Shown here one piece after another: positions 12,716-39,106 of a DNA stretch of 64,000 bases. The notes under the pieces were generated by a model. That model was not told the DNA's origin and searched no databases. It worked only from the letters and a program-made list of their open reading frames with translations. The position numbers were made by a program, and so were the translations under genes. The DNA is from Microbacterium sorbitolivorans (GTDB lineage Bacteria > Actinomycetota > Actinomycetes > Actinomycetales > Microbacteriaceae): NCBI RefSeq assembly GCF_003327285.1, contig NZ_KZ848474.1:248001-312000 (forward strand). Reading direction: 5' to 3'. How positions within the stretch are numbered: the first letter of the stretch is position 1; each line of letters begins with the position of its first letter.

Positions 12716-13627
12716 GTGAGTGACAACCTTCCGCGTCCGACCTGGGTCCAGGTCGTCGCCGGCCTTTTCGGCGCCGCGGCGCTCGTGCTCGCCGCCTGGT
12801 GCGTCGTCTTTATCGTGCGGGGCGTGCTATCGACGCCGGAGCTGCAGGGCTTCCTCGACCGCTATCCGGGAGACGCGCCGCAGCCAGCGTCGACGCCCGA
12901 GGGTTTCCCGGCGTGGCTGTCGTGGACGCACTTCCTCAACGCGTTCTTCCTCGTCCTCATCGTGCGCACCGGCATCCGCGTGCGCACCGAGAAGCGCGCG
13001 GGAGGGCTCTGGACGTCGACGCGCGTCAAGAAGCGCCGCATGTCGCTCGCGCTCTGGGGGCACATCGCGGTCGACTGCTTCTGGATCCTGAACGGCGTCG
13101 TCTTCGTCGTCTTGCTCTTCGCGACGGGCCACTGGGCGCGCATCGTGCCGACGAGCTGGGAGGTCTTCCCGAACGCGCTCTCGGCGCTGCTGCAGTACGT
13201 GTCGCTCGACTGGCCGACGCAGAACAGCTGGGCCTATTACAACGCGCTGCAGCAGCTGAGCTACTTCGCGATCGTGTTCCTCGCGGCTCCCCTCGCGGCC
13301 ATCACGGGCTTCCGGCTGAGCACCTTCTACCCGCCGAAGTGGGAGCGCGCGTTCTCATGGGACCTCGCGAAGCGGATCCACTTCCCCACCATGCTCTTCT
13401 TCGTCGCCTTCGTCATCGTGCACGTCGGGCTCGTGCTGACGACCGGGGTACTGCGCAACCTCAACCACATGTACGCGGGGCGCGACGACGTGAGCTGGAT
13501 CGGCTTCGCGGTGTTCGCGGGCTCGATCGTGCTCATGGTCTTCGGCTGGCGCGCGGCGATGCGCGACGACTGGATCGCGCGCCCCGCCCGCATCTTCGGC
13601 AACGTGAAGGTGCTCCCGAAGCGCTAA
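12716..13627 (+). CDS. Cytochrome b561/Ni-hydrogenase-type membrane protein
   Basis: A 303-residue protein with about five to six membrane spans and membrane-embedded histidines (SWTHFLN, LWGHIAVD, IHFPTM, FVIVHVGL) arranged as in di-heme cytochrome b domains. It probably carries electrons between quinone and a periplasmic molybdoenzyme, but no such partner is adjacent. GTG 12716 lies 6 nt after a GAGAAT -10-like box and also has GGTGAG upstream. It faces rlmN across a perfect hairpin. Confidence 0.75.
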   Translation: MSDNLPRPTWVQVVAGLFGAAALVLAAWCVVFIVRGVLSTPELQGFLDRYPGDAPQPASTPEGFPAWLSWTHFLNAFFLVLIVRTGIRVRTEKRAGGLWTSTRVKKRRMSLALWGHIAVDCFWILNGVVFVVLLFATGHWARIVPTSWEVFPNALSALLQYVSLDWPTQNSWAYYNALQQLSYFAIVFLAAPLAAITGFRLSTFYPPKWERAFSWDLAKRIHFPTMLFFVAFVIVHVGLVLTTGVLRNLNHMYAGRDDVSWIGFAVFAGSIVLMVFGWRAAMRDDWIARPARIFGNVKVLPKR

Positions 13628-13632
13628 CTCTG

Positions 13633-13683
13633 CAATTCTCCGCGCGGTCATCTGCTATTCGCAGATGACCGCGCGGAGAATTG
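13633..13683. repeat. Perfect 23-bp-arm palindrome, family P2
   Basis: Arms at 13633-13655 and 13661-13683 (CAATTCTCCGCGCGG...) are perfect inverted copies around TATTC. It lies between convergent genes and may terminate both. It matches no other palindrome in the window by eye. Confidence 0.85.
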
Positions 13684-13719
13684 ACGGCTGAGCGGGAAAG
13701 TGCGGAGTTACAACCCCGC

Positions 13720-14940
13720 TTAGACCGCGGCGGCCTCCGAGGCGCGCTCGTCCTCTTCCGTCACGACGAGCTGACCGCAGGCGCCGTCGATCTCCTTGCC
13801 GCGGGTGTCGCGGATCGTCGTCGGAATGCCCTTGTCATTGAGGCGACGCACGAACTCGCGCTGGGCGGGCAGCGTCGAGGCATCCCAGACGGATCCGGGG
13901 GTCGGGTTCAGCGGGATCGGGTTGACGTGCACCCATCCCTTACCGCGGGCGAGCAGCTTCTCGGCGAGGAGGTCTGCGCGCCACGGGTGGTCGTTCATGT
14001 CCTTGATGAGGGCGTACTCGATCGACACGCGGCGGCCGGTCTTGTCGAAGTAGGCGCGCGCGGCGTCGAGCACCTCGTCGACCTTCCAGCGCGAGTTCAC
14101 GGGGATCATCTCGTCGCGCAGCTCGTCGTCGGGAGCGTGCAGCGAGAGCGCGAAGGTGACGGGGATGTCTTCCTCGGTGAGCTTGCGGATCGCGGGCGCG
14201 AGGCCGACGGTCGAGACCGTGATGCCTCGGGCGCTCATGCCGAGGCCCTCCTTCTTGTCGACCATCGTGCGCACGGCCTGCATGACGCGGGCGTAGTTCG
14301 CGAGCGGCTCGCCCATGCCCATGAAGACGATGTTGCTGACGCGCTCGGCGCTATTGTCGTCCTCGCGCTTGCCGCCGAGCTCGCCCTTGGCGATGATCTC
14401 GTTGGCGCGCACGACCTGGTCGACGATCTCGGCCGCCGACATGTTGCGGGTCAGGCCGTTCTGGCCCGTCGCACAGAAGGGGCAGTTCATGCCGCAGCCG
14501 GCCTGCGAGCTCACGCACAGCGTGATGCGGCCGGGGTAGCGCATGAGAACCGACTCGACGAGGGCGCCGTCGTGCAGCTTCCAGAGGAACTTGATGGTGT
14601 CGCCGCCGTCGGTCTGCAGGCGTCGTACCTCGGTCAGGAGCGTCGGGAGCATGCCGTTCACGAGCTCCTCGCGGCCGTCCTTCGGGAGGTCGGTCATGAG
14701 CTCGGGGTCGCGCGTGTAGCGCTCGAAGTAGTGCTTCGCGAGCTGCTTGGCACGGAAGCCCGGCAGGCCGAGCTCCTTCACCTTCTCGACGCGCTGCTCG
14801 GGGGTCAGATCCGCGAGGTGCACCGGCGGCTTGCCGCGCTTCGGGCTCGCGAACTGCAGCAGCGGTCGCCCGCTGTTGTCCTTGCGCTGCTCCCAGCCCT
14901 CGGCCTTGGGCTTGACCTGGCGAATTCCCGACGTCGTCAT
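13720..14940 (-). CDS. rlmN: 23S rRNA (adenine(2503)-C(2))-methyltransferase RlmN
   Basis: A 406-residue radical SAM enzyme that methylates A2503 of 23S rRNA (and A37 of some tRNAs). It has [18 protein letters not shown] with the CxxxCxxC cluster motif (C-GMN-C-PF-C), [18 protein letters not shown] and the C-terminal resolving cysteine in [11 protein letters not shown]. The long open frame extending upstream is repeat DNA; ATG 14940 fits the family start. A TACCGT box ends 7 nt before the start. The upstream region is the P4 palindrome array. Confidence 0.95.
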
Positions 14941-14994
14941 GCCTTCTACGGTACGGGTTCTGCCTGATGAACGCCCGTCCTTCTGCCGTGCTCT

Positions 14995-15600
14995 CCCCCG
15001 GCCCTCCGGTCGCGCAAACTGCTCCTCCCGGATCCGCCGAAGGACAGGTTGCGCGACCGGAGGCGCGGCCCGGCCGCTCCGGTTTGAGAATCTGCTCCTC
15101 CTCGCCGGTTTTAGAGCAGATTTCCGCACCGGAACCGCGGCCCCGCCGCTCCCGTCGCTCAAACTGCTGCTCGCGGGCACCACAAACGACCGATTGCGCG
15201 ACCGGAACCGCGGCCCGCCCGCTCCGGTTTGAAAATCTGCTCCTCCCGGCGAGATCTGGAGCAGATTTCCGAACCGGAACCAGCCGCCCGCCTGTTCCCG
15301 TCGCGCAAACTGCTCTTCCCGGATCCGCTGAAGGACCGATTACGCGACCGGAACCGCCCACCCGCCGCTCCCGTCGCTCAGGCTGCTCCTCCCGGGCACC
15401 ACAAAGGACCGATTGCGCGACCGGAGGCACGGCCCGACCGCTCCCGTTTGAGAATCTGCTCCTCCTCGCCGGTTTTGGAGCAGATTTCCGAACCGGAACC
15501 AGCCGCCCGCCCGCTCCCGTCGCGCAAACTGCTCTTCCCGGGCACCACGAAGGACCGATTGCGCGACCGGAACCGCGGCGAACAGCCGATTGGGCGACCG
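14995..15600. repeat. Eight-unit alternating palindrome array (family P4, types A and B)
   Basis: Units begin near 15006(A), 15077(B), 15147(A), 15221(B), 15294(A), 15367(A), 15441(B) and 15514(A), a period of 70-74 bp. Type A is an imperfect hairpin with GTCGCGCAAACTGCTC on the left and GATTGCGCGACCGG on the right. Type B has GTTTGAGAATCTGCTCC on the left and GGAGCAGATTTCCGAACCGG on the right. Both share CTGCTCCTCC in the left arm. It fills the 735-bp gap between the divergent rlmN and LLM genes. Its open frames are repeat translations, not genes. Confidence 0.85.
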
Positions 15601-15675
15601 GAACGGCCCGCCCGCCGGTTGTGGGGCCGCCACAAACGAAGCGGCCGTGACAGCAAATGTTGGCAGGCTGGACGC

Positions 15676-16638
15676 ATGCAGATCGATCTGGGCGTCAGAG
15701 ACGCCGCACCAGATAATGCCCTCGCCGCCGCCCGCCGCGCAGAAGCCGGCGGCTTTGATGGGATCCAGTTCCCCGAGCTCGCGCACGATCCCCTCGTCGC
15801 GTGCGCGCTGGCGGGCTCCGCGACCGAACGGATCCGCACCGCGACGAGCGTGACCGTCGCGTTCGCGCGCAACCCAATGGTCGTCGCGCAGGCGGCGAAC
15901 GACGCGCAGCTCGCGTCGCACGGCCGCTTCTCGCTGGGCCTCGGATCGCAGGTGAAGGCGCACATCGAGCGCCGCTTCTCGATGCCGTGGACGGCCCCCG
16001 CGCCGCGCATGCGCGAGTTCATCGGTGCCGTGCGGGCGATCTGGCGCTCGTGGGAGTCGGGCGAGAAGCTCGCATTCGAGGGCGAGCACTATTCGCACTC
16101 GCTCATGACACCGATGTTCTCGCCGGGTCCGAACCCGCACGGATCCCCCGACATCTGGCTCGCCGCCGTCGGCCCCGCGATGACAAAGCTCGCGGGCGAG
16201 GCCGCCGACGGATTCATCGCCCACGCGTTCACGACCGCCGACTACATCGAGCAGGTCAGCCTGCCGGCGCTCGCGGAGGGCCGCGACCGCACCGGCCGCG
16301 AGAGCACCGACGTCATCGTGACCCCGTTCGTCGTCACCGGATCCGACGAGGCCGCCCGCGCCGCCAGCGAGCGGGCGGTGCGCGAGCAGATCGCGTTCTA
16401 CGGATCCACGCCCAGCTACCGCGGCGTCATGGAGCTGCATGGTTGGGAGGACACGGCCGACGCGCTTCACGCTGCAAGCCGGCGCGGCGAGTGGTCGGCG
16501 ATGGGATCGCTCATCACCGACGACATGATGTCGGCGTTCGCGATCGACTGCCCGAGCCCCGACGTCGAGGCGCTTCGGCGCGCCGTCGAGGAGCGCTTCG
16601 GGCTCTCCGCTCACCGCGCCTGCATCACGCTCGGATAG
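15676..16638 (+). CDS. LLM class F420-dependent oxidoreductase
   Basis: A 320-residue luciferase-like TIM barrel: GVRDAAPDNALAAARRAEAGGFDGIQFPE, TSVTVAFARNP, FSLGLGSQVKAHIERRF and DIWLAAVGPAMTKLAGEAADG. These enzymes use reduced F420 (or FMN) to act on unknown substrates; the TIGR03617-like pattern favours F420. ATG 15676 follows a CAGGCT box by 6 nt. Consistent with F420 synthesis genes elsewhere in the window. Confidence 0.85.
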   Translation: MQIDLGVRDAAPDNALAAARRAEAGGFDGIQFPELAHDPLVACALAGSATERIRTATSVTVAFARNPMVVAQAANDAQLASHGRFSLGLGSQVKAHIERRFSMPWTAPAPRMREFIGAVRAIWRSWESGEKLAFEGEHYSHSLMTPMFSPGPNPHGSPDIWLAAVGPAMTKLAGEAADGFIAHAFTTADYIEQVSLPALAEGRDRTGRESTDVIVTPFVVTGSDEAARAASERAVREQIAFYGSTPSYRGVMELHGWEDTADALHAASRRGEWSAMGSLITDDMMSAFAIDCPSPDVEALRRAVEERFGLSAHRACITLG

Positions 16639-16735
16639 CCCGCGATGCCCGTTATTCCGCGAATGTCACCGAATCGTGAGACGCAACCGGCGGGCCCGCG
16701 CCTGTATCACAGCCAGGATCCAGTAAGTTGACCGC

Positions 16736-18976
16736 GTGGGGAGTCTCGAGGACACGGACGGGCGCGACGAGCGCGATGTGATCGGCGACCCCGCCGGCGC
16801 GTCACCGGCCGACGAGATCGAGGCGGGCGCGCCCGCGGATCCAGTGGACGAGACCCCCGAGGACTCGATCGTGCCGGATCCGGTCGACGACGTCCCGGAG
16901 GAGGCTCCCGAGACGAGCGAGGTCGCCCCCGAGCAGACCGAGCCCGAGCAGACCGAGCCCGAGCCGATCGAGTTCGCTACCCAGGCGACCGAGGTCAGCC
17001 CCAAGCCGACCGAGCCTGCGCCGGTCGAGGTCGCGTCCGAAGAGGTCGAGGCCGAACTGGCCGAGGCCGCTCCCGAGCCGACCGAGGTCGCACCTGAGCC
17101 GAGCGAGCCCGAGCCGACCGAGATCGCCCCCGACCCGGAGGATCCCGCCCCCGCCCCCGAGACCGACGCGGTGCCCACGTTCCTCGGGCTGTTCGCGAGC
17201 GAGCCGGCACCGGATCCGGAGATCGACGTGGCGCCCGAGGCGCCCGCGGCCCCGGCCGAATCGACCGATACCGACTCGGTGCGGATCTTCGCCGAGATGT
17301 TCCGCGGCTTCCGTCGCGGATCCGCCGCCGAGGCGCCGCAGGAGCCCGACGCCGGCGCGGACGACGGCACCGACGACGAGGCCGACGCGGAGTCGGTCGA
17401 CGACGCCGCGGGCGACGAGGCGACCGGATCCATCGCGGTGATTGCGGCAGCCGCCGCGGCCGCGACGCCGGCCGACTTCGCGACGGTGATTTCCGGATCC
17501 GCCGCCCCGACGACGCACACCAGCAAGGAGAACGACGTGTCGAGCAGCGAGCCGTCCGGCCCCGCGACCGCCCGCCCGGTCAAAACCACCTACGTGCCGA
17601 GCGACGCGAACAACGAGACCGAGCAGGCGCTCGCCTGGCTCGCGTCCGAGAACGTGGCGTCGGGGCAGGCCCCGGCCATCGGATCCGCGGTGTCGATCGT
17701 TCCTCGCCGCCGCAGCCGCTGGGTGGCGGCGGTCGTCGCGCCGTTCGTCACGGCGCTGATCCTCGCGGTCGTCTACCTCGTCGCCTTCGCGGTCTGGCCG
17801 CTCAGTAACGTCAACCCGACGGCGGCGAACGCCGAGATCTCGACGCCGGTCGCGCCGGTCGCGAACCTGCCCTGGCCCGAGACCGGCCAGGCGGCGCTGC
17901 TCGTGGGCGATGACGAGACCCCGCTGACGTCGGGCGATGCCGACGCGACGCTCAGCCCCGCCGCGACGGCGAGCCTCGCGAAGGTCATCACGGTCATGAC
18001 GATCCTGAACAAGCAGCCGCTCGCCGAGGGCGAGGACGGCCCCGACTACGAGTTCGGTTGGGCCGACAAGCAGCAGTACGACAACCTGCTCTGGAGCGGC
18101 GAGTCGGTGCTCGAGGTGCCCGTCGACGGCACGCTCACGTACCGCCAGGTGCTCGAGGGAATCATGCTGGCCTCGGCCGGAAACTACGTGAACAAGCTCG
18201 TCGACGATCTGTGGGATTACAACCGCGACGCCTTCCGCAACGACGCCCTGACGTGGCTGCAGCAGAACGGCTTGAGCGACACGAACCTCGTCGACCCGAC
18301 GGGCATCAACCCGCTGACGCAGTCGACCGCGACCGACCTCGTGCAGATCGCGAAGATCGCAATGCAAAACCCGACCTTCGCCGAGATCGTGGGCGAGGAT
18401 CAGGTGGTCCTGCCGGGCGCCGGCGTGGTCGAAAACTCGAACCCGCTGCTCGGCGAGTTGGGCGTAATCGGCATCAAGACCGGCCACCTCAACACGTGGA
18501 GCCTGGTGAGCTACAACCTCATGACGGCCGCCGACGTGCCGCTGTCCGACGAGGCGGGCGCCGAGACGGTGCGCGTCTACTCGGTCGTGACGGGCCAGCC
18601 CGAGCCGACGGAGCAGAGCCCCTTCGGCGAGGAGACCCGCGAGCTGCTGCAGGCCATCACTGACGCCCTCCAGCCCGTCGAGGTGATGGCGGCCGGAACC
18701 GTCGTCGGCACCGTGACGACGCCGTGGGGCGAGTCGACGAACATCATCGCGTCCGAGACCGCCGACCTCAGCCTCTGGAACGGCGAGGAGGCCGACGTGA
18801 CGGTCGATTACGACGTTCCGCTTGGCACCGCGGCCGGAACCGAGGTGGGCACCGTGACGCTCACGAGCGAGTTCGGATCCACGACAATTCCCCTGACCAC
18901 GACGAAGGAACTGCCGCGGCCGTCGGTCGAGTGGCGCCTCTCGCACCCCCTCGAGCTGCTGGGATTCGGGAAGTAA
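16736..18976 (+). CDS. D-alanyl-D-alanine carboxypeptidase-like PBP with long acidic head
   Basis: A 746-residue protein. Residues 1 to about 320 are a disordered, strongly acidic Pro/Glu/Asp/Ala region. RRRSR and a transmembrane helix follow (about 323-350), then an extracellular serine peptidase domain with SLAK (Ser413), SAGN and KTGH, the three active-site motifs of class C low-molecular-weight PBPs, and a C-terminal beta domain. It should trim the terminal D-Ala of peptidoglycan stems. The large cytoplasmic head is unusual for this family. GTG 16736 lies 6 nt after TAAGTT, suggesting leaderless initiation. Confidence 0.88.
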   Translation: MGSLEDTDGRDERDVIGDPAGASPADEIEAGAPADPVDETPEDSIVPDPVDDVPEEAPETSEVAPEQTEPEQTEPEPIEFATQATEVSPKPTEPAPVEVASEEVEAELAEAAPEPTEVAPEPSEPEPTEIAPDPEDPAPAPETDAVPTFLGLFASEPAPDPEIDVAPEAPAAPAESTDTDSVRIFAEMFRGFRRGSAAEAPQEPDAGADDGTDDEADAESVDDAAGDEATGSIAVIAAAAAAATPADFATVISGSAAPTTHTSKENDVSSSEPSGPATARPVKTTYVPSDANNETEQALAWLASENVASGQAPAIGSAVSIVPRRRSRWVAAVVAPFVTALILAVVYLVAFAVWPLSNVNPTAANAEISTPVAPVANLPWPETGQAALLVGDDETPLTSGDADATLSPAATASLAKVITVMTILNKQPLAEGEDGPDYEFGWADKQQYDNLLWSGESVLEVPVDGTLTYRQVLEGIMLASAGNYVNKLVDDLWDYNRDAFRNDALTWLQQNGLSDTNLVDPTGINPLTQSTATDLVQIAKIAMQNPTFAEIVGEDQVVLPGAGVVENSNPLLGELGVIGIKTGHLNTWSLVSYNLMTAADVPLSDEAGAETVRVYSVVTGQPEPTEQSPFGEETRELLQAITDALQPVEVMAAGTVVGTVTTPWGESTNIIASETADLSLWNGEEADVTVDYDVPLGTAAGTEVGTVTLTSEFGSTTIPLTTTKELPRPSVEWRLSHPLELLGFGK

Positions 18977-24441: not shown

Positions 24442-24645
24442 GGGATGCGTTCGCGTCGTTACGAGGCGCCATAACGACACGATGCCATCCCCCAAGTGGG
24501 AGCCACACCCTGCGGGATGCCTTCATGTCGTTATGAACGGCCAGAACGGCACAACGACATCCCTCAGGCGCGCCTGACCCCTGGCGACGCCTTGAAGGAT
24601 GCGTTCGTGTCGCTATGGGGCGTCAGAACGACACGACGGCATCCC
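24442..24645. repeat. Three-copy palindrome cluster, family P5
   Basis: Units at 24442-24491, 24514-24563 and 24597-24645 each run from (G)GGATGC...GTCGTTA to ACGACA...CATCCC, an imperfect hairpin of about 50 bp. Spacing is 72 and 83 bp. A partial arm (AAAACGACACAACGA) continues to about 24690, at the end of the LLM gene. Confidence 0.75.
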
Positions 24646-29939: not shown

Positions 29940-32336
29940 ATGACTTCGCTCGCACCCGTCCTCGACCGCGCCGCCCGCGGCGAGCGCCTCGACGCCAACG
30001 ACGCCGAGGCCCTGCTCTCGGCCACCGGAGCCGACTTCGACCGCCTGCTCGAGATCGCCGGATCCCTGCGCGACGAGGGCCTGCGCCTCGCGGGGCGCGA
30101 GGGCATCATCACCTACTCGCGCAAGGTGTTCATCCCGCTGACGACGCTGTGCCGCGACCGCTGCCACTACTGCGTTTTCGTCGACACCCCGAACCAGCTT
30201 CTCGCGAAGCACAAGCCCGCCTACATGTCGGCGAGCCAGGTGCTCGCGGTCGCGCGGCAGGGTCAGGCGAAGGGGTGCAAGGAGGCGCTGCTGACGCTCG
30301 GCGACCGCCCCGAGGACCGCTGGCCCGAGGCGCGCGCCTGGCTCGACGAGCACGGCTACGGTTCGACGCTCGAATACGTCGCCGACATGGCCCGGCTGAT
30401 CCGCGACGAGACGGGGCTCCTCCCCCACATCAACCCCGGCGTCATGCACCCCGACGAGCTCGCGATGCTGCGCGCCACGGCGCCGTCGATGGGCATCATG
30501 CTCGAGACGACGTCGCGGGCGCTCTTCGAGAACCGGGGCGAGGTGCACTACGGATCCCCGGACAAGGATCCCGCCCTGCGCCTCACCGTCATCGACAACG
30601 CGGGCGCCGCGCGGATCCCGTTCACGACCGGCATCCTCGTCGGCATCGGCGAGACGCTGCGCGACCGCGCCGAGTCGATGGTGGCGCTGCGCGAATCGCA
30701 CGAGCGGCACGGGCACATCCAAGAGGTGATCGTGCAGAACTTCCGCGCGAAGCCCCGCACGGCGATGCAGAACGCGCCCGACGCGCAGCTCATGGAGTAC
30801 ACCGCGGCCGTCGCCGTGACGCGGATCGTGATGGGGCCGCGGATGCGGATCCAGGTGCCGCCGAACCTTCAGGACATCGTCGAGCTGTCGCTGCTCGCCC
30901 GGGCCGGGGCGGATGACTGGGGCGGGGTGTCGCCGCTGACGGCCGACCACGTCAACCCCGAGCGGCCGTGGCCGCACCTCGACGACCTCGCCGCGCGCAC
31001 CGCCGAGCTCGGCTTCACCCTGCGCGAGCGCCTGACGGCGCACCCCGAGTACCTGCGCGACGAGTGGCTCGCGCCCGAGATGCGCGAGGCGACGCGCGCC
31101 CTCGCCGACCCGGCGACGGGCCTCGCCATCGAGGGGGCGCTGCCGGTGAGCCACGCTTCGGGGTCTGCTTCGGGTGCGCGCCACGCTCCGGGTGGGCGCG
31201 CCACTTCGCTTGGGTCGCCAAAAAATGTCGCCTTCGGGGCACCCGAGGCGACATTTTTTGGCGACCCTGCGGAGGCGGAGGACGCGCCTGTGCTGTTCGC
31301 GCCGGGCGGGCTCGTGGCCGCGCTCGTCGAGCGGGCGGCGGAGGATCCCGGATCCCTCGACGACGGCGAGTGGGTGCGCCTTCTCACCGCCACGGGCGAC
31401 GAGCTCGACGCCGTCGTGCAGGCCGCCGACGATGTTCGCCGCTACACCGTCGGCGAGGCCGTGTCGCTCGTCGCGAACCGCAACATCGCGTCGACGCTCT
31501 ACGGATCCGCGGACGACGGCGGATACGACCTCGCGCAGCTCGCCGACATGGCGCGCGATGCGGCGGACCTCGGCCTGACCGAGATCTGCGTGCAGGGCGT
31601 CGTGCCCGGCCCCGCCGAGGGCTACCTCGAGATCGCGCGCGCCATCAAGGCCGCGGCCCCCGGGATCCACCTGCACGCCTACCGCCCGCAGGACGTGCGC
31701 GACTTCGCCGACCGCAGCGGGCTCTCGCTCGAAGCTGCGCTGTCGGCCCTGCGCGAGGCGGGCGTCGACACCGTCCCCGGCACGGGGGTGAAGGTGCTCT
31801 CCGAGCGGGTGCGCCGCGAGGTCGCGCCGGGCGACCTCGCGATCTCCGATTGGATCCGCGGGATCACCGCCGCGCACCGCGCCGGCTTCACCTCGACCTC
31901 GGTGATGTTCTACGGCCACGTCGAGACGGCGGAGGAACGGATCGCGCACCTGCGCGAGCTGATCCGGATCCAGAACGAGACGGGCGGCTTCACGGAGTTC
32001 GTGCCGATCCCGATGCCGGGCTGGGGCCGCCCGCTCGTCGAGGGCCGCGCCGACATCGACGAGCACCGCGCGATGGTCGCGGTGTCGCGCCTCATGCTGT
32101 CGGGCACGATCGCGCACATCCAGCTGCCGTGGACGCGCCTCGGGCTGCCCGCGACCGCGATCCTGCTGAATGCCGGCGGAGACGACCTCGGCGGCACGCT
32201 GCTCGACGGACGCGTGGGCCCGCGAAGCGGCGTCGAGGCCGGCGCCACGCTCACCTTCGACGACGCCCGCGCGCTCGTGCGGCCCCTGTTCCGCCCGCTG
32301 CGCGAGCGCACCACCAGCTACGGCGAGGTGTCGTGA
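29940..32336 (+). CDS. fbiC: FbiC-like CofGH fusion (FO synthase) with degenerate CofH half
   Basis: A 798-residue fusion. The CofG half has an intact radical SAM motif (Cys71, Cys75, Cys78 in TLCRDRCHYCVF). The linker (about residues 400-450) contains an in-frame copy of palindrome family P1 (residues 425-443). The CofH half keeps VANRNI, HLHAYRPQDV, GYxEIAR-type and FYGHVETAEERIAHLRELIR...ETGGFTEFVPIP segments. However, where CofH normally has NVCxxxCxFCAF after NRNI, this protein reads NRNIASTLYGSADDGGYDL and has no cysteines. The first enzyme of FO synthesis should therefore lack its second cluster. GGGAG precedes ATG 29940. First gene of the F420 operon. Confidence 0.88.
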   Translation: MTSLAPVLDRAARGERLDANDAEALLSATGADFDRLLEIAGSLRDEGLRLAGREGIITYSRKVFIPLTTLCRDRCHYCVFVDTPNQLLAKHKPAYMSASQVLAVARQGQAKGCKEALLTLGDRPEDRWPEARAWLDEHGYGSTLEYVADMARLIRDETGLLPHINPGVMHPDELAMLRATAPSMGIMLETTSRALFENRGEVHYGSPDKDPALRLTVIDNAGAARIPFTTGILVGIGETLRDRAESMVALRESHERHGHIQEVIVQNFRAKPRTAMQNAPDAQLMEYTAAVAVTRIVMGPRMRIQVPPNLQDIVELSLLARAGADDWGGVSPLTADHVNPERPWPHLDDLAARTAELGFTLRERLTAHPEYLRDEWLAPEMREATRALADPATGLAIEGALPVSHASGSASGARHAPGGRATSLGSPKNVAFGAPEATFFGDPAEAEDAPVLFAPGGLVAALVERAAEDPGSLDDGEWVRLLTATGDELDAVVQAADDVRRYTVGEAVSLVANRNIASTLYGSADDGGYDLAQLADMARDAADLGLTEICVQGVVPGPAEGYLEIARAIKAAAPGIHLHAYRPQDVRDFADRSGLSLEAALSALREAGVDTVPGTGVKVLSERVRREVAPGDLAISDWIRGITAAHRAGFTSTSVMFYGHVETAEERIAHLRELIRIQNETGGFTEFVPIPMPGWGRPLVEGRADIDEHRAMVAVSRLMLSGTIAHIQLPWTRLGLPATAILLNAGGDDLGGTLLDGRVGPRSGVEAGATLTFDDARALVRPLFRPLRERTTSYGEVS
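31212..31267. repeat. Palindrome family P1, copy inside fbiC
   Basis: Perfect 22-bp arms (31212-31233, 31246-31267) beginning GGGTCGCCAAAAAATG, with an inner GGG/CCC stem. It is in frame in the CofG-CofH linker and encodes SPKNVAFGAPEATFFGDP. Confidence 0.9.
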
Positions 32337-35514: not shown

Positions 35515-35685
35515 GTGTCCCAGTTTGGGTGGGAATAGCGCCCTCATTCCGACACAAAGTGGGACATACCCCGGAGCGTGTCCCACTTAATGTGGGAATA
35601 GCGCCCTCATTCCCGCCACAACTGGGACATGCTTAGGAGCGTGTCCCACTTAGTGTGGGAATAACGACCGAAAGTGGGACATGCC
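35515..35685. repeat. Three-copy palindrome array, family P7
   Basis: Units begin at 35515, 35578 and 35641 (period 63 bp). Each starts GTGTCCCA and ends TGGGACAT, with GGGAATAGCGCCCTCATTCC in the first two centres. The third unit is shorter. The final ACATG supplies the start codon of the AGT-like gene. Confidence 0.85.
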
Positions 35686-36196
35686 TCGGAGTGGCTACCT
35701 TTACACCGTCACGGCGACGCCCTTCGGGGCCGCCGTCGCGGTGTTCACGCCGGCCGACGCGCTGGTCGCGCTCGGCACGGCCGAGGATCCGCTCTGGGTG
35801 GTCGACGCGGTCGCGCGCGAGATCCGCGGATCCCTCGCGCCGGCCGACGGCGACGTCGCGGGTCTCGGATCCCAGCTCGGCGAATACTTCGACGGATCCC
35901 GCACAGCGTTCGACGTCGAGATCGACTGGGCGCTGACCGACGGATTCGCGCGCGACGCCCTGCAGTGCGTCACCGAAATCCCCTACGGCGAGACCGCGAG
36001 CTACGGCGAGGTGGCTGAGATGGCGGGGCGCCCGCGCGCGCACCGCGCCGTAGGCACGGCCTGCCGCTTCACGCCGCTGACGCTCGTGGTGCCGGTGCAC
36101 CGGGTGATCCGGGCCGACGGATCCGCGGGAGAGTTCTCCGGCCGCGAGGACGTGAAGCGCTTCCTCCTCGAGCTCGAGGGCGCGACGTTTAAGTAG
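35681..36196 (+). CDS. AGT-like protein without the acceptor cysteine
   Basis: A 171-residue protein with the two-domain layout of methylated-DNA-protein cysteine methyltransferase: YGETASYGEVAEMAGRPRAHRAVGTA (recognition helix and arginine finger) then LVVPVHRVIR. Active enzymes have PCHRV; here the codon is GTG (Val139). It is therefore more like an alkyltransferase-like protein (PWHR or PAHR in known cases), which binds O6-alkylguanine and flags it for excision repair. The Asn before the active site is also changed (RFTP for RxNP). ATG 35681 lies within the last P7 repeat. Confidence 0.85.
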   Translation: MPRSGYLYTVTATPFGAAVAVFTPADALVALGTAEDPLWVVDAVAREIRGSLAPADGDVAGLGSQLGEYFDGSRTAFDVEIDWALTDGFARDALQCVTEIPYGETASYGEVAEMAGRPRAHRAVGTACRFTPLTLVVPVHRVIRADGSAGEFSGREDVKRFLLELEGATFK

Positions 36197-38996: not shown

Positions 38997-39106
38997 CCCG
39001 CGAGATCTCACTCTTCTCGCGAGATCGCACCGAATTCAGTGCGACCTCGCGAAATGAATGCGACCTCGCGGGGGAGGGCTCGCGAAAAGAGTGCGATCTC
39101 GCGGGG
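38997..39106. repeat. Palindrome family P9, compound element
   Basis: Outer 26-base arms (38997 to about 39022 and 39081-39106) pair with two mismatches: CCCCGCGAGATC...CGCG against CGCG...GATCTCGCGGGG. The inside holds two further inverted motifs based on GCGAGATCGCA and TGCGACCTCGC. The right arm resembles coding repeats at 28.1-28.3 kb. Confidence 0.8.

Follow-up and report, generated by a model that had tools for sequence, protein, structure and literature searches.

A dispersed family of Microbacterium palindromes that turns over in concert and grows into local arrays

An array of eight near-palindromes in a 64,000-nucleotide stretch of Microbacterium sorbitolivorans DNA (hereafter the window) belongs to a palindrome family that is dispersed across Microbacterium, and concerted turnover and local array growth in this family are well supported by genome-wide and genus-wide comparison. 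Taken as a whole, the observations are probably best explained by an interspersed family of REP/BIME-like palindromes that is free of RAYT, was expanded locally and has been turned over in concert. What moves the palindromes and what they do we infer, and both are worded below as such.

The array spans window positions 15004 to 15603, with eight units in the order A-B-A-B-A-A-B-A between 15004 and 15572. On the plus strand, 59-bp palindromes of type A lie at 15004–15062 (unit 1, found by nhmmer and covariance model R1) and, detected by R1, at 15149–15207, 15295–15353, 15368–15426 and 15514–15572 (units 3, 5, 6 and 8), while model R2 places type B palindromes at 15077–15134 (unit 2, 58 bp), 15222–15279 and 15441–15498 (units 4 and 7). 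A lone right half of a type A unit follows at 15577–15603 of the same strand, seen both as a partial nhmmer hit and as a lone half-site in a pattern search of the M. sorbitolivorans genome. Successive unit centres are 72.5, 72.5, 72.5, 73.5, 73, 72.5 and 73.5 bp apart, and half-sites are far more frequent in the window than in shuffled sequence (nine A half matches against 0.74 expected with two mismatches; five B half matches against 0.03 with three mismatches). An array of eight palindromes with a period of about 73 bp, as proposed in an earlier note on this DNA, is thus confirmed by coordinates, spacing and half-site excess; a coding repeat was considered and rejected, since 73 bp is no multiple of three. 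Two consecutive 219-bp blocks of three units each (15119–15337 and 15338–15556, plus strand, repeat family D1) are 85% identical and form a segmental duplication, indicating growth by multi-unit blocks. The flanking genes, both taken from the gene finder and their translations and named by the earlier note, are rlmN on the minus strand (13720–14940), whose start lies 63 bp from the array, and an LLM gene on the plus strand (15676–16638), whose start lies 72 bp away.

Units of the family are palindromes of 58–60 bp in which a pair of inverted arms, each about 24 bp long, encloses a centre of 9–11 bp, and their outer 10 bp most often read YTCCSGTCGC, with other outer arms also occurring. The consensus arm of type A lies near TTCCGGTCGCNCAAWCTGCTC and returns inverted after the centre, and that of type B lies near TTCCGGTTYGRRAATCTGCTC. 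Both types have in common the outer end, an AAWCTGCTC segment and a near-equal size, and they differ in roughly six intervening bases, CGCNCA in A and TYGRRA in B, as read from alignments. The earlier description of both as hairpins holds insofar as both are palindromic, but the arms of B are imperfect, with 15–20 of 24 positions in Watson-Crick pairs. Type A units within arrays also share internal mismatches, a C-A in 18 of 21 and a T-G in 17 of 21 when three arrays are flipped by R1 score.

Arm pairing gives results that point in different directions, the units of M. sorbitolivorans resembling independent half-sites and those of relatives preserving their pairing. In M. sorbitolivorans the arms show no covariation (80.7% standard pairs in A against 80.3% when shuffled; 77.2% in B against 78.3%), so that these units give no sign of selection on folding. 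Among 86 units of named relatives, inner stem pairing reaches 0.728 against 0.470 ± 0.016 in shuffled arms, and with arms shuffled within genomes it is 0.736 against 0.651 ± 0.020, a value attained in 0 of 1000 shuffles. The named units of this set and of the gene-context set below were selected by requiring a perfect outer arm and one set length, which makes the constancy of both properties a matter of design; the pairing set omits the Amycolatopsis and Streptomyces loci (L154 and L184), which the gene-context set includes.

In the 3.06-Mb draft genome, covariance models built from 28 A units (R1) and 19 B units (R2) place the family at 17 sites; nine of these are arrays and eight are single units, and a lone half lies beside one single unit. 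Full A units number 29 (21 of them in arrays, eight alone) and full B units 19, each of which (19/19) adjoins another unit; a degenerate unit at L032:2431 and the lone halves are excluded from the A count. Such numbers dispose of the possibility that A and B are random pieces present once. The genome-wide count proposed in the earlier note, of whether the two types always pair, came out negative, with eight of the 29 A units standing alone and two sites consisting of B-B only. Likewise, the strict alternation that had been read into the window array fails at its own A-A step and across the genome, where 16 of 31 neighbouring pairs are unlike, against 15.8 ± 2.8 in random order (the 31 adjacencies omit a 123-bp gap that counts among the 32 pitches below). 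The longest array, at C2:183k, has nine units in the order ABBAABBAA, which contains a four-unit repeat with units 86–97% alike; the array at C2:66k reads AAAA, truncated B, BA, its first A being degenerate; that at C3:310k reads ABBAA; and the remaining orders are AB, BBBAA, BB, BB and AB.

Like units within arrays point in the same direction in 42 of 43 pairs, a comparison confined to like units. Pairs of A run head to tail in 29 of 30 cases, and those of B in 13 of 13 when taken from the window array and from C2:183k, C2:66k, C3:310k and C2:656k; for the four B units pooled from two neighbouring sites at C3:300k, three of six pairs share an orientation. Owing to block duplication, pairs from one array do not count as independent.

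At least three further palindrome families are present in the window beside A and B. Family C, at window positions 31212, 36207, 36276, 43459, 55473 and 58389, is laid out as GGTCGCCAAAAAA, a variable GC stem and TTTTTTGGCGACC, with a constant GGGTCGCCAAAAAA outer arm and a T run in the other arm; its GC stem varies from copy to copy yet remains paired, and from this layout the family looks like a set of bidirectional terminators with a common frame. Exact matches to it number 11 in the M. sorbitolivorans genome and five in the genome G103, with none in the other 147 of 149 Microbacterium genomes. Family D consists of 50-bp palindromes (GGGATGCSTTCGTGTCG..), with three units between convergent genes at 24442–24645 of the window and six on contig C4 (L273, 2095–2547). 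Array E, at 35515–35700 between two same-strand genes, has three units with GTGTCCCACTTA.. arms, and nested GCGAGATCGCAC-like palindromic pieces lie at 39000–39105 within a 172-bp gap. The pitches of these families in the genome are 72 and 82–83 bp for D, 63 bp for E and 69 bp for C.

For A and B units, the centre-to-centre pitch is 71–73.5 bp in 28 of the 32 adjacent pairs of the genome. The exceptions are 62.5 bp twice, 68 bp beside a degenerate unit and 123 bp across a truncated one; the two instances of 62.5 bp, about ten bp below the rule, represent one event copied by the four-unit duplication. Linkers are mostly 14–15 bp long, and their identity is 0.541 between arrays against 0.525 ± 0.005 for letter-shuffled linkers, and 0.640 within arrays against 0.553. 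Linker length is thus kept while linker sequence is nearly free, and shared ancestry of the arrays may explain part of this: a three-unit block of the window array is 80% identical to C3:310350-310582, showing that array ancestry is partly shared.

A length of 73 bp corresponds to seven turns of B-DNA. Over 24 pitches, a set assembled by hand with one value per distinct pitch per array, the vector length is 0.655 at a period of 10.45 bp (P about 3e-5) and 0.667 at 11.0 bp, and P is 0.02–0.07 for the 13 values left when the A/B arrays are removed. Helical phasing is accordingly a suggestion and no result, as the period is not resolved and the signal rests mostly on the A/B arrays. Tandem units at 83–84 bp start to start were also observed in loci L198, L220 and L169 (M. 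bovistercoris, Microbacterium sp. MAH-37 and SD291). A tandem-unit pattern matches 51 of 366 genomes across the genus; many of the matches listed look coding-like by eye, and the pattern was left out of the spacing statistics.

Beyond this genome, R1 matches 48 of 149 sampled Microbacterium genomes (E 1e-4) and R2 matches 10 of 149, strongly only in M. sorbitolivorans itself and M. nanhaiense CGMCC 4.7181 (G057). A pattern of TTCCGGTCGC, 38–40 bases and GCGACCGGAR occurs in at least 116 stretches of GTDB genomes; among the 80 matches listed, 75 are from Microbacterium, and the other five are from Mycetocola (twice), one member of Microbacteriaceae, Amycolatopsis and Streptomyces. The strict A pattern had no match in named genomes, a set from which M. 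sorbitolivorans and very near genomes are perhaps missing. No similar DNA was found in plasmid and phage collections; the outer-arm pattern is present in one viral contig, and the type C pattern in none. Furthermore, Rfam gave no gathering-level match for window positions 13000–17500 and nine loci, and a full-text literature search for palindromic repeats or REP in Microbacterium or Microbacteriaceae turned up no publication that describes such elements.

The relatives' units combine a widespread outer arm with inner arms typical of each genome. An outer arm of YTC(C/A)(G/C)GTCGC or a one-base variant is found in 35 of 51 units fetched from eight relatives, the remainder carrying TTCGAATCGC, TTCGTGTGAC, CCGAGAACGC or others. 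For 99 units from nine genomes, which comprise every fetched unit (those of B in M. sorbitolivorans and off-types included) rather than every match, genome-averaged inner-arm identity is 0.758 within genomes and 0.470 between them; over all pairs it is 0.662 against 0.500, and the largest difference in 1000 permutations was 0.038. Outer arms follow their genome to a lesser degree (0.838 within and 0.656 between, genome-averaged). A second set of ten genomes, restricted to the main types for four of them by omitting the off-types of G057, G148 and G064 and the B units of M. sorbitolivorans, gives inner-arm identities of 0.70 within and 0.41 between.

Comparison of orthologous sites reveals the palindrome persisting at several of them while its type or number changes, a concerted turnover as in REP elements, which is well supported. 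For example, the site at C3:310k holds A-B-B-A-A in M. sorbitolivorans, one unit of another type in G148 and none in M. nanhaiense. At C3:299.8k, B-B is matched in M. nanhaiense by one A-like unit, and G148 has one unit of its own type just beyond the aligned flank; at C3:301k, B-B corresponds to one B-like unit in M. nanhaiense; and at C2:183k nine units stand against two in that species. Turnover is not uniform, as the single unit at C3:560k is nearly identical in sequence in M. sorbitolivorans and M. nanhaiense. The single unit at C3:288.7k has no counterpart in M. nanhaiense, where the flanks are too divergent to define an empty site, and target duplication at an empty site was not observed in any of the orthologous comparisons. 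The window site itself has no palindrome unit in M. nanhaiense or G148, both of which have a small lipoprotein-like gene there, flanked by the same neighbours. Its products in these genomes are 53% identical (E 6e-34), and the gene was not found in the window, including the interval 14941–15675, or in the other stretches of the M. sorbitolivorans genome that were searched.

Gene context is biased. Among 87 distinct units in named loci, 29 lie between convergent genes, 45 between tandem genes and three between divergent genes, with five at locus edges and five inside predicted genes. For the relatives' scorable units this amounts to 29/77 convergent and 3/77 divergent, compared with 53 convergent, 168 tandem and 85 divergent among the 306 gaps of 60 bp or more within those loci; the divergent deficit has a P of 1e-6 and the convergent excess a P of 3e-4. 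The median distance from a stop codon to a unit in the relatives is 23 bp. By the gene finder, 16 of the 17 M. sorbitolivorans sites are intergenic, with 11 convergent, four tandem, one inside a predicted gene and one divergent, the last being the window array. Its position between rlmN and the LLM gene, given in the earlier note, is therefore real but exceptional for the family. With respect to the chromosome, nine of the 17 sites are on contig C2, which makes up 23% of the genome (P 0.007) and carries dnaA at C2:441068, and one of the 17 is on C1, which at 1.19 Mb makes up 39% (P 0.003). A bias towards the origin is only hinted at by these numbers.

Several known systems resemble these elements in part. 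REPs are described in passages of PMC3733652 and PMC8266576 as palindromes of 20–50 nt preceded by GTAG (or CGTC), a conserved bulge is noted for those of E. coli in a passage of PMC8266576, and BIMEs are characterized by alternating REP orientation in passages of PMC3733652, PMC8266576 and PMC2817692. Like REP/RAYT systems (REPtrons), the present palindromes are dispersed, extragenic, clustered and genome-typical, and their common C-A and T-G stem mismatches recall the conserved bulge of E. coli REPs; like BIMEs, their clusters mix two palindrome types at regular spacing. Even so, classical REP/BIME elements spread by RAYT (TnpA-REP) are a very improbable explanation. The RAYT domain (Y1 transposase, PF01797) is absent from the M. 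sorbitolivorans genome and was found in one of the 149 Microbacterium genomes including it, by a search that was positive in five of 14 control genomes, and the sole positive genome, G041, has no R1 match. Moreover, the units measure 58–60 bp rather than 20–50, no GTAG or CGTC tag was seen by eye, copies number about 50 rather than hundreds, like units run head to tail where BIMEs alternate orientation, and the alternation of types is at chance level. In the strict sense, REP/RAYT is refuted unless almost all of the genus has lost the cognate RAYT. Of the earlier note's phrase, a mosaic REP array rather than decay, the mosaic array of repeated palindromes stands, with both types present genome-wide, and the label REP in its defined sense does not. 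Other resemblances are more superficial: CRISPR arrays also have repeats separated by linkers of constant length and variable sequence, but by repeat layout the repeat here (58–59 bp) is nearly fully palindromic, the linker is 14–15 bp and linkers within an array are related. Integron attC sites (59-base elements) are likewise imperfect palindromes of about 59 bp, with GTTRRRY as core motif, but no such core was noticed by eye and no gene cassettes lie between units.

Among the remaining explanations, the units may be duplex binding sites of a dimeric protein, such as a nucleoid protein, a gyrase-like enzyme or a regulator, with each arm a half-site and the arrays serving as one-face scaffolds. 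We regard this as possible, if on the doubtful side. It fits the halves in M. sorbitolivorans, which keep a consensus yet vary independently, the clustering of A/B pitches at 72–73.5 bp with 62.5 bp in one duplicated exception, the pitches of D and E, and the site counts on the dnaA contig and C1; against it, the phasing leans on the A/B arrays, its period is not resolved, C has a pitch of 69 bp, the arms of relatives pair beyond their consensus, and no candidate protein was identified. A role as bidirectional transcription terminators, whereby the hairpins would end transcription from both convergent sides and arrays would act as reinforced terminators, appears unlikely. Long hairpins between convergent genes are what such terminators have in common with the units, whose 3'-end and convergent bias and predicted RNA folds (mean -25 to -37 kcal/mol) agree with this role, and family C, with a T run after its variable stem, resembles a real bidirectional terminator. 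Intrinsic terminators differ from the units in their following T-run, however, and none of 103 3'-side flanks in relatives has at least five T in 10 bases (T fraction 0.117). Tandem units in turn lack the strand signature of an RNA, with 48 G-U mismatches and 54 A-C and hence no G-U excess, and by eye an ordinary GC-rich, terminator-like hairpin adjoins units at C3:299.8k, C3:301k and C2:66k. Genome-typical sequence would be unnecessary for such a role, arrays of up to nine units are unlike ordinary terminators, and the window array lies upstream of both its flanking genes. Improbable, too, is a minimal MITE with arms that are the terminal inverted repeats of an insertion sequence located at another genomic position. 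The relatives do share an outer arm around a variable interior, but in a search of the M. sorbitolivorans genome with A half-sites only, all 50 matches with at most two mismatches lie inside unit sites; two of them are unpaired halves next to units, an insert the size of a gene is flanked by none, and the orthologous sites showed no target duplication. Lastly, some of these patterns could also come from recombination by itself or from independent palindromes at shared favoured sites.

Under the preferred reading, a RAYT-free family turned over in concert, the window array would be a local expansion of a genus-wide interspersed palindrome family through duplication of multi-unit blocks. Copies may be homogenised or re-seeded by a palindrome-reading, trans-acting enzyme or a recombination route other than RAYT; no mover was found. 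At the 3' ends of genes the palindromes would be tolerated because they lie outside coding and promoter DNA, and they may perhaps be useful there as bidirectional hairpins or protein-binding sites. In M. sorbitolivorans, unequal recombination between units may have produced the arrays with a fixed pitch of about 73 bp, a spacing perhaps kept since by protein binding or by selection for helical phase. A more far-reaching version, to which we give little credence, would have several coexisting RAYT-independent families (A/B, C, D and E) with one architecture, renewed in concert in each species by an enzyme or binder that coevolves with the inner arm. Their pitch would take only whole numbers of helical turns (about 6, 7 or 8) because the units would act as a phased scaffold for protein, chiefly on the part of the chromosome that bears the origin.

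Interspersed palindromes of bacteria are usually explained by RAYT transposases, and the Microbacterium family turns over almost wholly without that domain. It also offers a clean system for comparison: intergenic sites are shared, the architecture is common to all, inner arms are typical of their genome, and in one species arrays reach nine units. Should a protein track the inner arm, it can be looked for by co-variation, and the regularity of the 73-bp pitch opens helical phasing to testing. The interest of the family lies chiefly in this combination of a missing usual mover and the possibility of site-by-site comparison across the genus.
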